NCBI GenBank assembly: GCA_031291955.1
Contig: JARLIA010000003.1
Span: forward strand, 1 to 41,314
Length of the DNA: 41,314 nucleotides
Direction: 5' to 3'
From: Minisyncoccota bacterium
GTDB taxonomy: Bacteria > Patescibacteriota > Minisyncoccia > Moranbacterales > UBA2206
The first letter of the stretch is position 1; each line of letters begins with the position of its first letter. Position numbers and translations under genes: made by a program. The notes beneath the pieces were generated by a model. That model was not told the DNA's origin and did no database searches. It saw nothing but the letters and a program-made list of their open reading frames with translations. Positions 12,623 to 36,742 of the stretch are shown piece by piece.

Positions 12623-12635
12623 CATTTTAGCAATG

Positions 12636-12667
12636 TGTTAAAATGTTAATATGCTAACATGCTAACA
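12636..12667. repeat. 4 x 8-nt micro-array running into the def start codon
   Basis: [TGTTAAAA][TGTTAATA][TGCTAACA][TGCTAACA]TG. Inverted related units just upstream (12615-12633). Confidence 0.8.
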
Positions 12668-13107
12668 TGATTCTCCCGATCATTACCTATCCCAACGACA
12701 TCCTGCGCAAAAAAGGCGCGCGAGTGAAAGACCCGAAAAGTTCCGAGACAAGGGAGCTGATTTTTGATATGCTGGAAACAATGGAATACAGCGGCAATGC
12801 CCTGGGACTGGCCGCTCCGCAAATAGGACAGTCAGTCCGTCTTTGTATCATCAAGCTCGACGGCAAAACACACATCCTCATTAATCCGAAAATTACCTAC
12901 AAATCCTGGAAAAAAGACACTGGCGAAGAAGGTTGTCTTTCCTTCCCCGGTAAGTTTATTCCCGTCAAGAGACACAAGAAAGTAACCGTCAAGGCCGTAG
13001 ACAAAGACGGAGAAAATGTCACTATCAAGGCTGATGGCCTGTTCTCACGCGCCCTCCAACATGAAATTGACCACCTGGACGGGGTTTTGTATATTGATAG
13101 AAAATAA
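12667..13107 (+). CDS. def: Peptide deformylase
   Basis: GLAAPQIG, EEGCLSFPG, LQHEIDHLDGVLYIDR. Confidence 0.97.
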   Translation: MILPIITYPNDILRKKGARVKDPKSSETRELIFDMLETMEYSGNALGLAAPQIGQSVRLCIIKLDGKTHILINPKITYKSWKKDTGEEGCLSFPGKFIPVKRHKKVTVKAVDKDGENVTIKADGLFSRALQHEIDHLDGVLYIDRK

Positions 13108-20657: not shown

Positions 20658-21725
20658 ATGAGCAACTTCTGGTTCAAACTAAATAAACCCATTTTGGCAT
20701 TAGCGCCCATGGCCGGCATAACCGACAGTGCTTTTCGCGAGATCTGCCGGCGGTACGGCGCGGACATAACAATCTCCGAAATGGCCAGTGTCTCGGCGCT
20801 GTTTTTCAAACCCCAAAAAACTTTGGAACTGGTGAAATTTAACAAAAATGAACGACCATATGTCGTCCAATTGTTCGGCAAACATCCGGAACATTTTTCC
20901 GCATCCGCGCGAATCATTACAGAAAAAATCAAGCCTGATGGCATCGACATCAATTTCGGCTGTCCGGCCAAGAAAGTTTTCGGCCACGGGAGCGGCTGCG
21001 CGCTCATGCCACAGAAAGAACTAGCCCGAGAAATCATTTCCGCCGTCTGCGATAACACCGACTTACCAGTCTCGATCAAAATTCGCGCGGGCATTGAAAA
21101 AGGTGGGTATTTAGATACCCACCCAAATACCCACCCGAAAAAAAACTCTTCGGTAAATGCTTTGGAATTCATTGAAAGCACCAAAGATCTCCCCTATTCG
21201 ACCGTCATGGTCCACGGCCGGACCTACGAAGGCGGTTTTTCCGGCGCAGTCGATTTTGAAATCGTTTCCGAAATCAAGAAAATAATTCCCGAGAAAATCG
21301 TCCTGGGAAACGGTGGAATCATGACACCTGAAGACGCCGTGAATATTTTGGAAAAATATCCCGATCTCGACGGACTCGGCATCGCCCGCGGCGCTTGGGG
21401 TCGACCGTTCATATTCGATGAAATAAAGAATTTTATATCTTATTTCGCCGATGGAGACAGTAGGGTCAGGTCGCGACCTGTCCCTACTGTCCAGGCAATG
21501 AAATACGATTTCGCCGCCATCAAAAAAATCATACTCGAACACGCCGAACTGATTTACAAAGACAAAGGCGGAGCCGGCAAATTCGAAATGCGAAAACATT
21601 TAGCTTGGTACGTCAAAGGATGGCCCGGCGCCCAGGAACTGCGCCGAAAATTAGTTACAGCCGAAAATCTTTCAGAAATAAAAAACGTCCTTGATAATTT
21701 TACTGTCCTATCTGAAATCCACTAA
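20658..21725 (+). CDS. dus: tRNA-dihydrouridine synthase with two palindromic insertions
   Basis: LALAPMAGITDSAFREICRRYGAD, INFGCPAKKVFGHGSGCALM, VSIKIRAG, MVHGRTYEGGFSG, VLGNGGIMTPEDA, IARGAWGRPFIF. Confidence 0.96.
   Translation: MSNFWFKLNKPILALAPMAGITDSAFREICRRYGADITISEMASVSALFFKPQKTLELVKFNKNERPYVVQLFGKHPEHFSASARIITEKIKPDGIDINFGCPAKKVFGHGSGCALMPQKELAREIISAVCDNTDLPVSIKIRAGIEKGGYLDTHPNTHPKKNSSVNALEFIESTKDLPYSTVMVHGRTYEGGFSGAVDFEIVSEIKKIIPEKIVLGNGGIMTPEDAVNILEKYPDLDGLGIARGAWGRPFIFDEIKNFISYFADGDSRVRSRPVPTVQAMKYDFAAIKKIILEHAELIYKDKGGAGKFEMRKHLAWYVKGWPGAQELRRKLVTAENLSEIKNVLDNFTVLSEIH
21102..21135. repeat. Palindromic element inside dus (first)
   Basis: GGTGGGTATTT ... AAATACCCACC, 11-bp perfect arms, with an internal alternative partner ATACCCACC; encodes GGYLDTHPNTHP. 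Confidence 0.85.
21456..21491. repeat. Near-perfect 36-bp palindrome inside dus (second)
   Basis: GACAGTAGGG-T-CAGGTCGCGACCTG-T-CCCTACTGTC, 17 of 18 pairs; encodes DSRVRSRPVPTV. Confidence 0.95.
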
Positions 21726-21758
21726 AAAATATTCACGTATTTTTAGAAAAATAAAAGA

Positions 21759-21784
21759 CCCCAAACGACAGCAGTCATTTGGGG
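21759..21784 (-). terminator. Terminator of the PEP-CTERM-like protein gene
   Basis: CCCCAAA...TTTGGGG stem, followed on the minus strand by TCTTTTATTTTTC. Confidence 0.8.
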
Positions 21785-21792
21785 CCCCGAAA

Positions 21793-22656
21793 TCAGAACC
21801 CGCGCTTGCGTCTTGCCAACGCAAACGGAATGATCCCGGCCAAAACCAGCAGTAGTGACGAAGGTTCCGACACTGAACCTGGCGGAGGCGGAGTGGGTTG
21901 ATTTGACCCGCCACCAGGGATGATAGGCACAATGATAGGCACTGGCCACCAAGCCACGTAGGAAACCGGCACGGCAGGCAGTGGAGCCGCTATGGCCGGC
22001 GGCGACAATTCCACAGGCCTTGGAATCGTCAGCTCGAAAAAAATCAGCTGACGATGAAACCCTGTGTCACAGAGGATGGCCACTTTCTCACCTGGCACCG
22101 GATGGAAATTCTTTCCGTCTCTCTCAGCTCTTACCAAGAAGACGCGGGATTTTTTGTCCAACTTGCTTTGGGGGAAAGTTGGATCGGTTAAGGCCCAAAC
22201 CCTAGCCTGAATTTCGTCGGGAGTTGCTCCAGATTTGTGATTCAGGATGTAGTTAATTACATTCCAATTGACCCTGCGATCCCAGGAGGGTATCGCTGTT
22301 GGGTCGTCGCTCGAGAATAACCTCACTCCTGAGATGGGAGTGTTCTTTTCGATTTGGAGACTCCGAGCGGCGCACCAGCCGAGATAGATTGCCCTATCCT
22401 TAATATCAAACGGGCCGCTGGAATCCGTGGAAATAATTTTGACATCGAAGCGGCTTTCTGATCCTCGAAAGCCCAAACGAATGGTGGCCGTTTCCGAAAG
22501 TTTGATTTCCGGGTAAGGAGCAGTCTCCGCAACCTTCACCGGAAGAGAAAGCGCTTCCTTTTTCGTCCACGAATTTATGGTCGTGGAATTGGCAGTTGGA
22601 ATAACAAAGAGCAAAACTGGCACTATCGATACAGCAAATAGGATATTCCTTTTCAT
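21793..22656 (-). CDS. Secreted protein, thioester-domain-like, with PEP-CTERM-like sorting signal
   Basis: Signal peptide; AIYLGWCAARSL; WDRRVNWNVINYILNHKSGATPDEIQARVWALTDP; Pro-rich stalk; SEPSSLLLVLAGIIPFALARRKRGF tail. Confidence 0.72.
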   Translation of the reverse strand: MKRNILFAVSIVPVLLFVIPTANSTTINSWTKKEALSLPVKVAETAPYPEIKLSETATIRLGFRGSESRFDVKIISTDSSGPFDIKDRAIYLGWCAARSLQIEKNTPISGVRLFSSDDPTAIPSWDRRVNWNVINYILNHKSGATPDEIQARVWALTDPTFPQSKLDKKSRVFLVRAERDGKNFHPVPGEKVAILCDTGFHRQLIFFELTIPRPVELSPPAIAAPLPAVPVSYVAWWPVPIIVPIIPGGGSNQPTPPPPGSVSEPSSLLLVLAGIIPFALARRKRGF

Positions 22657-22745
22657 TTTCCCCTCCTCAAAACGTTTAATTGTCTTGTGTTATACAGCCA
22701 TATTCGACTGGATATAATAAATCTATTTACCTTTTTTGTCAAATC

Positions 22746-25916: not shown

Positions 25917-27704
25917 ATGAAAACGTCTAAAAACACAGAAAACCAACACCGAAACGAATTTATCGCTCTCCTGGGCTTATATTTTTTGGGCCTCGGATGG
26001 CTGGCGGTAATTTTGACCACCTTGGGATTTTTTTATGCTTGGATCCTGGCCGCCTATCTGGTTTTTGGCGCCGCTTGGCTCGCGCGACATTTCAGTCTTC
26101 ACCGGAAAAAGATTGTTTTCGGCCGCACCTTTCTGATTGTTCTCATCCTTTCTATTTCTACGATAATTCTCTGGTCTTATTACACCACTCCGACCATTTT
26201 CTCCGGACGCGACCAAGGATCTTTCAGCCAGGCAGCCGCTCTCCTCGCCCAAAATCATCGCCTGGCTTTTTCCTTCCCGGCCGAAAAACAATTTTTCCAA
26301 ATCTATGGACCGGGGAAGGCTCTAAACTTTCCCGGTTTTTATTACACTCCGAGCGGCGACCTAATCACTCAATTCCCGCTTGGCTACATTTCCTGGCTGG
26401 CCATTTTCTTCGCCTTTTTCGGCCTCACCGGCTTCATCCTGGCCAACGCCGTCTCTTTTTTGATTTTCCTTTTGTCTTTTTATCTTCTGGCCCGGAAATA
26501 TAGCCAGCGTGATTTTTCCTTGATCGCGGTCTTTTTCGTCCTGACATCTTTCATCTTTGCCTGGTTTTTCAAATTCACCTTGAGCGAAAATCTGGCCCTG
26601 GCGCTCGTCTGGTTTGGCCTTTTGGAATTGGTCACTTATCTGGAAAAAAACAGCCGACTGCATCTTCTGGCCACGCTGGCTTCATTTGGTCTTCTGCTTT
26701 TCTCGCGCACGGAAGCCTTGGCGTTTCTGATTATGATCGCCGTTCTTTTGTTTATTGTTTTTCGCCACCCGCGAAAAATTTGCGTCGCCGTTGGAAAAAA
26801 ATTGGGTTTGACCTTAGCCGGCATGACAATCATTTATTTCTTCAGTTTCAAAGTCAATTTTTATTTCTATCTGACTGTTGTCAAAGGCTTCATCGCTTCT
26901 TTTTCTTCCCGCCCGTCTTTTGATCCGGGCGGCGGCAATCATTTCTTCGTTCCCTTTCTTTATGTTCTCAAGCTCTTTTCCGCCTACACCCTGATTAGTT
27001 TTCTGATCCTAGGAACGCTCGGAATCTTGTATATTTTGCGGCGAAAAAAATATCTCTGGCTCGTTCCCGCCTTTGTCATTCTGCCAGTTTTCGTCTATCT
27101 GGTTCATCCCGGCATTTCAGCTGATCACCCTTGGATGCTCCGTCGTTTTCTCTTTGCTGTGGTACCAGGGAGCATTTTCTATAGTGCCATCTTTCTGGAA
27201 CACTTCTTCCCCAAAAAAATCTATGCTTACATCCTGGCCGCTTTCGTGCTAACGACCAATCTTTTGGTATTGGCACCCTATCTGGCATTTTCACCGGATC
27301 GGAATCTCCTGCCTCAGGTAAAAAATATTGCCGCCAATTTCAACAGCTCTGATCTGGTTTTAGCAGACCCTCTCGCTACCGGAGACGGTTGGGATATGAT
27401 GACCGGACCAATGCGCTTCCTCTTGGGAAAGCAAGTCGTTTATTTTTTCAATCCCAATGATTTGGCCAAGATTAACACAAAATTGTTCAATCACGTATAT
27501 CTGATTATCCCCGACCAGAATTTTCCCCGCTATGCCCAAGCTGGTTTTCTGAATAAATTGATTACCATAAAAAGCTACCAGATTGAGACAAGCACACTGA
27601 CCACGGAAAATTCCACCCAAGAAACAACCTGGAACTCGACGATAACCCTGCCAGGAGTTCAAAAAAATATCATTTATGGTAAAATATACCTACTAAAGAA
27701 ATAA
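25917..27704 (+). CDS. Polytopic membrane glycosyltransferase (GT39/ArnT-like)
   Basis: Many TM helices, FSGRDQGSFSQAAALLAQ, FPLGYISWLAIFFAFFG. Confidence 0.7.
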   Translation: MKTSKNTENQHRNEFIALLGLYFLGLGWLAVILTTLGFFYAWILAAYLVFGAAWLARHFSLHRKKIVFGRTFLIVLILSISTIILWSYYTTPTIFSGRDQGSFSQAAALLAQNHRLAFSFPAEKQFFQIYGPGKALNFPGFYYTPSGDLITQFPLGYISWLAIFFAFFGLTGFILANAVSFLIFLLSFYLLARKYSQRDFSLIAVFFVLTSFIFAWFFKFTLSENLALALVWFGLLELVTYLEKNSRLHLLATLASFGLLLFSRTEALAFLIMIAVLLFIVFRHPRKICVAVGKKLGLTLAGMTIIYFFSFKVNFYFYLTVVKGFIASFSSRPSFDPGGGNHFFVPFLYVLKLFSAYTLISFLILGTLGILYILRRKKYLWLVPAFVILPVFVYLVHPGISADHPWMLRRFLFAVVPGSIFYSAIFLEHFFPKKIYAYILAAFVLTTNLLVLAPYLAFSPDRNLLPQVKNIAANFNSSDLVLADPLATGDGWDMMTGPMRFLLGKQVVYFFNPNDLAKINTKLFNHVYLIIPDQNFPRYAQAGFLNKLITIKSYQIETSTLTTENSTQETTWNSTITLPGVQKNIIYGKIYLLKK

Positions 27705-27714
27705 CCCTGTTTCT

Positions 27715-29091
27715 ATGTTTGATTTAACCAAAGAAGTTGCTCTGGAATCGTCCCTTCGGAAATGGTACCGTTTTTTGCAATTAATGCTATATTTATTGGG
27801 ACTGATTGCCGCCGTCTTTTTGGCGTACCTCATTTTATTTCCGCACAAGAATTACAATTATTCTTTCTCCTTGGACCCATCGTCCTCCAAAAACAGCATT
27901 AGCCAACCAATTGTCGACAAACAGCTTTCCGCCGACGGAAAGACGGAAGCCGGCAATGTCTTTGGTTTTGACGCGTCTGTTTTTGGCTATTATTCCCGCG
28001 TCACCGTCAACCTAACTTTGAATGGCGATTCCAATCCGCTCAAATCCCCCATTTTGAATGCCCAAAAATCCTACAAAGCTTTTCTTTTCGATGTCGGCGA
28101 TCCGGTCGGTTTCCGGGATGGATCGCTTCTCATGAACAACAATAAGTTTTATATCGTTTCCGATAATCAGCTACGGCAATTTTCCAACGCAGTAGCGCTG
28201 TCTGGTTTCGGTTATATCCCTCAAGACTTTATTTATGTCCCGACAGACGAATTGAAATATAATCCGATCGGTCCGGTCATTGCCACGGCAGACAGTTATC
28301 CTGATGACACCATCTTCCGAATAGCGGACAATTATTATATTTTGAAAAACGGAACACTGGAAAAATTCGTAAGCGACCAGGCATTCACCACCCAATATGA
28401 TCCCCGTCAGGCACTGGCCAAAGACGCGAATTTTCTGCAAAAATTTCCGCTTTCCAAAGACTTGGCCAGTTTTATTGACGGCACATTGGTTTCTAACGGC
28501 GGTTCGGTCTATATCGTGAGCGGTAATAATTTATTACCCGTCAACGACCCGACCACTTTTATCACTCATGGCTATCTTTGGGACAAAGTCCTGCCGGTCG
28601 GCGAAGACGAGATTGCCAATTATCCGCAAACCAAGCTGTTCAAAATTTCCGACCCCAACCCGGACGGCACTGTTTTCGCCACCCAAGACAGCTCCCAATA
28701 TTATCTAATCCGGGGCAACCAGAAGCATCTCTTGCCTGGCCCGGACATCGCCCACTCCTGGTTTGGGAAAAACGCTGCCATCCCGGTTTCCCAAAATGAT
28801 TCCCGAAAAGCCTTGAGTTGCAATTTAAAAAAAAATCTTTTTACCAATACTTATTCCTGCAATTTTTCAATTGACAGTTTCACAAATTTTCCCGGCACAG
28901 ACTTTGTCTTCAAGCTTTCCAACCAAAATGCCGTTCGGATCAATTCTATCAACCTTTCGTTCACGAAAGACATTAATCGGACCAATCTAATCTCATCTTT
29001 AAGCGGCTTGCTCAACCAAGCCAGAAATAACTATGAAATTTCGAAGCCTTCTCCGTCGGCCGGACCTGTCCAGACTCAAGCCGCCAACTAA
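27715..29091 (+). CDS. Membrane-anchored protein with about four ~60-aa repeats of the DGTL..YYI..GN type
   Basis: N-terminal TM; repeats such as DGSLLMNNNKFYIVSDNQLRQF, DDTIFRIADNYYILKNGTLEKF, DGTLVSNGGSVYIVSGNNLLPV, DGTVFATQDSSQYYLIRGNQKHL. Confidence 0.6.
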   Translation: MFDLTKEVALESSLRKWYRFLQLMLYLLGLIAAVFLAYLILFPHKNYNYSFSLDPSSSKNSISQPIVDKQLSADGKTEAGNVFGFDASVFGYYSRVTVNLTLNGDSNPLKSPILNAQKSYKAFLFDVGDPVGFRDGSLLMNNNKFYIVSDNQLRQFSNAVALSGFGYIPQDFIYVPTDELKYNPIGPVIATADSYPDDTIFRIADNYYILKNGTLEKFVSDQAFTTQYDPRQALAKDANFLQKFPLSKDLASFIDGTLVSNGGSVYIVSGNNLLPVNDPTTFITHGYLWDKVLPVGEDEIANYPQTKLFKISDPNPDGTVFATQDSSQYYLIRGNQKHLLPGPDIAHSWFGKNAAIPVSQNDSRKALSCNLKKNLFTNTYSCNFSIDSFTNFPGTDFVFKLSNQNAVRINSINLSFTKDINRTNLISSLSGLLNQARNNYEISKPSPSAGPVQTQAAN

Positions 29092-29455
29092 AAACACGGC
29101 ATTGGTTACCTACAAGCTCGCAAACGACCTGCTTTTCATCCTCCTGATCTTCTTTACGCTGGCGTTTATTGCCGAAGGAATCATTCCCGGATTAGTTTCC
29201 ACCAGTTTCAGCCTGTTGCGTTTCGCCGTTCTCATCGCTCTCACTCTGGCGCTTATTTTCACAGTCGCTCCGCGAGCTGGCATCAAACTCAAAAAACCGC
29301 TCAACAAAAAAATGACCGCCTTGGTCATTTTCGTGACAGCTCTTCTTTTTTTCAACAGCCTCTTAAAACTGAGCGTTTATTTGAATATATTCATCAGCCT
29401 GACCGCTATCTTCGCCGGCTATTATACTTACGAAACGATATCGGAAGAAAATTGA
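29033..29455 (+). CDS. Small polytopic membrane protein, hypothetical (start uncertain, overlaps preceding CDS)
   Basis: Four hydrophobic segments, continuous with the operon. Confidence 0.55.
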   Translation: MKFRSLLRRPDLSRLKPPTKNTALVTYKLANDLLFILLIFFTLAFIAEGIIPGLVSTSFSLLRFAVLIALTLALIFTVAPRAGIKLKKPLNKKMTALVIFVTALLFFNSLLKLSVYLNIFISLTAIFAGYYTYETISEEN

Positions 29456-35578: not shown

Positions 35579-35618
35579 TTCAACATTTTAACATATTAGC
35601 ATTTTAATCCCCAGCATT

Positions 35619-35650
35619 TGCTAACATGTTAATATGCTAAAATGTTAACA
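35619..35650. repeat. 4 x 8-nt micro-array between mreB and mreC, with inverted counterpart at 35581-35607
   Basis: [TGCTAACA][TGTTAATA][TGCTAAAA][TGTTAACA]; same motif class as the def leader array. Confidence 0.85.
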
Positions 35651-35656
35651 CGGGTC

Positions 35657-36742
35657 CTAGCGAAGCGATTTTTCGTGCTGATTCTCGACCAAAACTTCCT
35701 GAAGGGCTTCAATATCCTCAAGAACAACACCCGTGCCGCGCACCACGGCCGTCAATGGATCTTCCATCATGCGGACCGGCATTTCCGTCTGGTCGGCCAC
35801 CAGCTTGTCAATGCCACGGATAAGACTTCCTCCGCCGGCCAAAATGATGCCACGTTGCATAATGTCAGCCACCAGCTCGGGCGGCGTCTCTTCGACAATG
35901 GTTCGGATATTGTTGATGATAATGCGAATAGAACGCGACAAAGCTTCTCGGACCTGCTCATCAGTAATCACAATTTCTTTCGGGAGACCCGAAACCAAAT
36001 CGCGGCCGCGGACCGTCATTTGCATTTTCTTCTCCTGGGGATAGGCGCTGCCGATAGCGATTTTTACGTCTTCAGCTGTTTTTTCGCCGATTAAAAGATT
36101 GAATTCATCCCGACAATAACGGATAACATCTTCATTCATTTCGTCGCCAGCGATCCGCAGATTCCGGGAAGCTACGATTCCGCCGAGCGATATCACCGCG
36201 ATGTCGGTCGTGCCACCACCAATGTCCACCACCATATTGCCAGCCGCTTCCTGAACCGGCAGACGCGCGCCGATAGCCGCCGCCATCGGTTCATCAATGA
36301 GATAAGCTTCGCGCGCTCCGGCACTGATGGCGGCGTCGATTACCGCTCGTTTTTCCACCTCGGTCACGTCCGAAGGAATACCAATCACCACTCGCGGCCG
36401 GGGGAAAAGCGTGAAGCTGTCTTTATGGACCTTTTCGATAAAATATTTCAACATCTGCTCGGTCACTTCAAAATCACTAACCACCCCGTCCACGAGAGGT
36501 CGCGTCGCGACGATATGGCCGGGGGTTTTGCCAACCATCCGCTTGGCTTCTTTCCCGATAGCCAGCACTTGCCCGGTTTTTTTGTTGATAGCCACCACCG
36601 ACGGTTCATTGATCATGATGCCGCTGCCTTTGACATAAACCAAAGTGTTAGCTGTCCCAAGATCGATTCCAATGTCTTTGGAAAAATTACCAAAAAAGCC
36701 GCCGCCGATTTTTCGTTTTAATTTCCGCAGTTTTTCGAACAT
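35657..36742 (-). CDS. mreB: Rod shape-determining protein MreB
   Basis: DIGIDLGTANTLVYVKGSGI, PRVVIGIPSDVTEVEKRAVIDAAISAGAREAYLIDEPMAAAIGA. Ends with TAG. Confidence 0.97.
   Translation of the reverse strand: MFEKLRKLKRKIGGGFFGNFSKDIGIDLGTANTLVYVKGSGIMINEPSVVAINKKTGQVLAIGKEAKRMVGKTPGHIVATRPLVDGVVSDFEVTEQMLKYFIEKVHKDSFTLFPRPRVVIGIPSDVTEVEKRAVIDAAISAGAREAYLIDEPMAAAIGARLPVQEAAGNMVVDIGGGTTDIAVISLGGIVASRNLRIAGDEMNEDVIRYCRDEFNLLIGEKTAEDVKIAIGSAYPQEKKMQMTVRGRDLVSGLPKEIVITDEQVREALSRSIRIIINNIRTIVEETPPELVADIMQRGIILAGGGSLIRGIDKLVADQTEMPVRMMEDPLTAVVRGTGVVLEDIEALQEVLVENQHEKSLR

Follow-up and report, generated by a model that had tools for sequence, protein, structure and literature searches.

Thioester domains (TEDs) of solved structure fold into an antiparallel barrel of six strands plus a three-helix bundle and share a topology of four strands, three helices and two strands, in which a cysteine ends the third strand and a glutamine lies in the last strand (PMC4450167, PMC6194298). 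The glutamine of the last strand, which is part of a PhiQ-zeta-PhiPhi motif, forms the bond with the cysteine. A helical motif, TQxxPhiW, packs against the cysteine; the Gln of this motif, hydrogen-bonded to the backbone of the Cys, is not required for the thioester (PMC4450167, PMC6194298). The cysteine is commonly found within the motif [YFL]C, but only the Cys and the Gln are universal (PMC6194298). Covalent adhesion is a known role of these domains, as exemplified by the TED of SfbI, which binds fibrinogen covalently (PMC4450167). A class II TED, pLS20 TIE, is needed together with its Cys for efficient cell-cell conjugation in Bacillus (PMC8092201). The founding survey reported TEDs exclusively in Gram-positive bacteria (PMC4450167), and in the open-access papers searched we found no description of a TED in archaea or Patescibacteria.

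The gene described here is located at 21793..22656 on the minus strand of a 41,314-nucleotide stretch of a contig from a Minisyncoccota bacterium; this whole stretch of DNA is referred to below as the window. The ORF is intact, begins with an ATG at 22656 and encodes a protein of 287 amino acids, while the plus strand over the same interval is full of stops. The preliminary description had proposed a thioester-domain adhesin from two segments of the translation, YLGWCAAR (containing Cys95) and WDRRVNWNVINYILNHKSGATPDEIQARVWALTDP (containing Gln150); both were found exactly as it gave them, and the ORF, for which it named no strand, was confirmed on the minus strand. A promoter-like site, TTGACA-17-TATTAT, was identified by consensus match (11/12 positions) at 22714..22742, a strong Shine-Dalgarno-like sequence, GAGGAGGGG, lies directly 5' to the ATG at 22660..22668, and a Rho-independent terminator with a 15-pair stem and a T tail is found 3' to the stop codon at 21755..21788, all on the minus strand. 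Judged from these signals, the gene seems to be transcribed as a separate unit. GC3 is 0.54, which falls inside the 0.48-0.60 of the neighboring genes; a recent origin as foreign DNA is not supported by composition.

Other features of the window include a near-perfect 36-bp palindrome, GACAGTAGGGTCAGGTCGCGACCTGTCCCTACTGTC, at 21456-21491, which is located within the dus coding sequence, leaves the frame unbroken and occurs as a single copy in the window. Two distant sites, 12625-12675 and 35616-35658, both at gene ends, have 8-bp tandem repeats of the ATGTTAAT/ATGCTAAC type. Past the upstream neighbors of the gene, the region 25917-29455 encodes a candidate PMT_2-like membrane glycosyltransferase and two proteins for which Pfam gave nothing. 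The source genome comprises 1.01 Mb in 15 contigs with a completeness score of 100%; its size and the neighboring genes point to Patescibacteria. The bacterium is probably epibiotic.

The 287-residue protein consists, in order, of a signal peptide, a single folded TED-like region, a Pro-rich linker and, at the C-terminus, a helix whose end is basic. The signal peptide, MKRNILFAVSIVPVLLFVIPTANS (approximately residues 1-24, with a putative cleavage site; 22585..22656, minus strand), combines a basic N-terminus with the stretch of highest hydrophobicity in the protein. The TED-like domain occupies residues 52-212 (22021..22503, minus strand), on the evidence of profile matches, an AlphaFold2 model and fold matches in the PDB that are TEDs. 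It is followed by the Pro-rich stalk noted in the preliminary description (residues 215-264; 21865..22014, minus strand). The C-terminal anchor also noted there proved to be, specifically, a PEP-CTERM signal (residues 262-285, within SVSEPSSLLLVLAGIIPFALARRKR; 21802..21873, minus strand), matching TIGR02595 with 16.8 bits against a cut-off of 16, and with 20.2 bits in the genome search. This tail is the only PEP-CTERM signal detected in the genome. An exosortase was not found in the genome with either PF09721 (best score 12.9 bits, cut-off 25.7) or TIGR04178 (best 6.9, cut-off 23); a weak exosortase-like match, L006, did not have the appearance of an exosortase on inspection. Two clear exosortases, L003 and L010 (E values of 6e-58 and 3e-55), do occur in G035, another genome from this order. 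Anchoring through LPXTG was rejected: although a sortase is present in the source genome, the protein has no LPXTG. Because no exosortase was found, the simplest reading is that the C-terminal hydrophobic helix is itself the membrane anchor. Two homologs from Bathyarchaeota, L045 and L051, are built alike, with signal, domain, short linker and hydrophobic basic tail.

Searches that started from this protein alone yielded no domain match in Pfam, nothing beyond the tail in NCBIfam, and no match among PDB sequences. No relative was detected by single-sequence searches of 114 related genomes and of the GTDB contigs, and none was found in plasmids or in IMG/VR. When 380 genomes of the phylum were searched loosely, a single match, L013 of genome G294, shared the motifs of the protein; the other weak matches (L014-L022) were inspected, lacked the motifs and looked like chance. 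The family was gathered by scanning GTDB contigs for DNA encoding W[ND]x[IV]NYx[LF]NH. By eye, 23 of the 36 loci recovered encode clear relatives, and these come from Thermoplasmata, Bathyarchaeota, Thorarchaeota, Chloroflexi, Planctomycetota, Verrucomicrobia, WOR-3 and a Thermodesulfovibrionales bacterium. From 22 of these homologs, with the protein itself left out, a profile was built that gives the protein 102.7 bits (E = 1.7e-30) and L013 115.9 bits; among 2000 shuffles of the protein, the highest score was 3.8 bits.

With a profile that included the 287-residue protein, members were found in 17 of 80 genomes of the class Thermoplasmata, and by profile search in only 2 of the 380 genomes of the source's own phylum. 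A small tree places L013 within Chloroflexi (support 100), whereas the protein described here forms a long branch beside Thermoplasmata. Two ultrasmall bacteria thus probably acquired the domain separately. In the second of these bacteria (G294), locus L062 (11059-13200) encodes a protein of 713 residues with a TED-like domain near its C-terminal end; by eye this protein also has an ice-binding-type domain and stalk domains, and it has no hydrophobic C-terminal anchor.

The structure of residues 31-214 was predicted with AlphaFold2 from a 23-row alignment (pLDDT 90.2, pTM 0.83). In protein numbering, the model has strands at 56-63, 69-77, 90-95 and 108-115, helices at 131-139, 146-157 and 168-180, and two further strands at 191-197 and 205-210; that is, strands A-B-C-D, three helices and strands P-Q. 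Cys95 closes the third strand, helix 2 contains Gln150 and Trp154, and Gln203 is located two residues ahead of the last strand. When this model was compared with the PDB, the first 11 matches were all thioester domains (5a0g, 5a0d, 2xid, 2xi9), followed by noise; the best was 5a0g (E = 9.6e-5, probability 1.00), and TM-scores to the TEDs were mostly 0.40-0.49. For L050, a homolog from Bathyarchaeota that was modeled independently (pLDDT 89.6, pTM 0.87), TED chains made up the top 13 matches, with TM-scores up to 0.54. For the two models together, every confident PDB match was a TED, with E values down to 7e-5, which upholds the class assignment first proposed. A fold search of a viral structure library gave no confident match. 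HCMV UL130, matched by the A1 profile (E = 0.017), was rejected as chance, the match being partial, not significant and absent from the fold-search results. Since the TM-scores are modest (0.44-0.54 for most TED matches), the predicted TED fold class is supported by the exclusivity of the matches and by topology, and not by close superposition.

In sequence similarity to catalogued TEDs, the family remains under threshold. The cysteine lies within WCAA and not within the [YFL]C-hydrophobic-hydrophilic pattern, and Trp precedes the Cys almost throughout the family. In helix 2, IQARVW matches TQxxPhiW in its Gln and Trp, with Thr replaced by Ile. Around Gln203 the sequence is RQLIF, with Arg before the Gln, where the homologs mostly have VQ or IQ; the PhiQ-zeta-PhiPhi motif is weak according to the literature. 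In a comparison with TED profiles, as the preliminary description had suggested, the protein itself was listed for neither PF08341 nor NF012162 at an E limit of 10, but homologs match weakly, two of them reaching PF08341 (TED; best E = 0.035) and one reaching NF012162, "thioester-forming surface-anchored protein" (E = 0.0099). Bona fide TEDs of a Clostridia family contain WILNH and VQQLAIWYFTN, which resemble the NYILNH and DIQxAIWYF of the family. A profile-profile comparison with 16 of these TEDs gave P = 2.3e-4 and a probability of 44%, against at most 1.2% for 30 shuffles; the signal is real, yet weak when taken by itself. In the model, the linker between helix 3 (ending at 180) and strand P (starting at 191) is about 10 residues long, the class II beta-sandwich of about 75 residues is absent between these elements, and the place of helix alpha0, which class I has between strand D and helix 1, is taken by a mere three-residue helical turn (124-126). 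Because it is predicted to be without the class II sandwich and to have only this turn where class I has alpha0, the domain may be regarded as a minimal, previously uncatalogued TED variant.

The position of the reactive glutamine was considered from the conservation of the family. In the 23-row alignment, Cys is found in 23/23 rows, the helical position is Gln in 21 rows and Glu in 2, and the C-terminal Gln is present in 22/22, the remaining row being trimmed short of the site. The second set, 32 rows from the Thermoplasmata search together with L013 (which is counted twice), was gathered by profile and not by motif, and partly overlaps the first. Here Cys is found in 32/32, the helical position is Gln in 26 and Glu in 5 of 31, and the C-terminal Gln is present in 31/31, one row ending short of the site. 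Overall, the helical Gln is replaced by Glu in 7 of 54 homolog sequences, while no replacement of the Cys or of the C-terminal Gln occurs. The homologs with Glu (L030, L052 and five rows of the second set) all keep the C-terminal Gln, and these sequences are natural evidence against the helical Gln as the bond former. Cys95 (GWC, at the end of strand C; 22372..22374, minus strand) is thus the candidate thioester cysteine. Gln203 (RQLIFFEL; 22048..22050, minus strand), which is better conserved than Gln150 and was missed in the preliminary description, is its candidate partner, because the C-terminal Gln is invariant and lies at the last strand, and the helical Gln is sometimes Glu. Gln150 (22207..22209, minus strand), with Trp154, is the equivalent of the TQxxPhiW motif and is not expected to form the bond. 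The earlier worry about a short spacing is largely removed, in that Cys95 and Gln203 are 108 residues apart; this is still below the 129-153 residues of the class I TEDs CpTIE, SfbI and PnTIE.

A thioester joining Cys95 to Gln150, as first proposed, would account for the resemblance of IQARVW to a TED motif, and helix 2 does pack near the Cys in known TEDs. However, it is the helical Gln that is dispensable for the bond in solved TEDs (PMC4450167, PMC6194298) and that gives way to Glu in the family, and we regard this pairing as very improbable. A different reading accepts the fold and assumes that the chemistry was lost or never used, so that the domain would be a structural or non-covalent module with Cys95 either free or in a disulfide with Cys196. 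The protein has exactly two cysteines, 95 and 196, the latter being in strand P and near the candidate Gln in sequence; a few homologs (L037, L038, L045, L050, L051) have a Cys at a similar place, and the Cys flanks deviate from [YFL]C. Most homologs, however, are without a second Cys, which would leave the invariance of Cys95 unexplained, as well as the unbroken conservation of Gln203. We therefore consider loss of the chemistry unlikely.

It might also be supposed that the gene encodes a horizontally acquired surface protein that is decaying or mislocalized, an orphan PEP-CTERM protein of no consequence to the cell. Among 142 close relatives searched, only the source's own genome carries the family; two models failed to find an exosortase, the PEP-CTERM signal is single in the genome, and the founding PEP-CTERM paper noted that single instances may be remnants (PMC1569441). 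Against this, the ORF is intact and has a promoter-like site, a Shine-Dalgarno sequence and a terminator, its GC3 is native-like, and the conserved residues of the family are kept despite great divergence. Decay of this kind appears quite improbable.

We consider it likely that the protein is an exported, anchored and compact TED in which Cys95 and Gln203 are set to form an internal thioester, and that attack by an amine would produce a covalent link. The analysis establishes the ORF, its family, the invariance of Cys95 and Gln203, the class of fold and the type of tail; the thioester, its reactivity, its target and attachment as its purpose are what we infer here. Speaking against this reading are the modest TM-scores, the low sequence similarity to catalogued TEDs, the Trp before Cys95 and the Arg before Gln203, a possible pairing of Cys95 with Cys196, and the failure to find an exosortase in the genome. 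Once exported, the protein would stay in the membrane through its hydrophobic C-terminal helix, and the Pro-rich linker would keep the single folded domain away from the cell. Cys95 in strand C and Gln203 in strand Q would form the thioester, and Gln150 and Trp154, both in helix 2, would pack against the backbone of Cys95. An amine, such as that of a Lys on a partner cell or in the cell's own envelope, could then attack the thioester to give an isopeptide link through Gln203. A precedent for a TED that is required where two bacteria make contact is pLS20 TIE (PMC8092201). That the 287-residue protein serves to attach an episymbiont to another microbe is a fair hypothesis.

Still more tentative, and in our view possible rather than probable, is the broader proposal that these domains form a third, minimal class of TEDs, present in archaea, several bacterial phyla and, through separate gains, at least two ultrasmall-genome bacteria, and that the domain serves as a covalent host-attachment device in the source organism. 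A compact TED that lacks both class-defining elements and occurs in archaea as well as an episymbiont-like bacterium would extend covalent adhesion to other branches of life. For structural studies and protein-ligation chemistry it would be a small target, and it would provide a molecule with which to address the open question of how Patescibacteria stay attached to their hosts.

Compared with known systems, the protein resembles those of the PEP-CTERM/exosortase type (TIGR02595) in its C-terminal EPSS motif, hydrophobic helix, basic cluster and single-gene unit, but the source genome differs in having no detected exosortase or second PEP-CTERM protein. With the class II TEDs (BaTIE 6fwv, SaTIE 6fx6 and pLS20 TIE) it shares the upper lobe and little or no alpha0; it differs in lacking their 75-residue beta-sandwich, and the fold match is weaker. 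Relative to the class I TEDs (CpTIE 5a0g, SfbI 5a0l and Cpa 2xid/4c0z), identity is at most about 16%, WC replaces [YFL]C, a PEP-CTERM tail is found rather than LPXTG, there is no isopeptide stalk, and helix alpha0 is a feature of class I. Nevertheless, class I provides the best fold matches and the same strand-helix-strand order, with a third-strand Cys, a Gln at the last strand, a short alpha3-P linker, a signal peptide and a C-terminal anchor.
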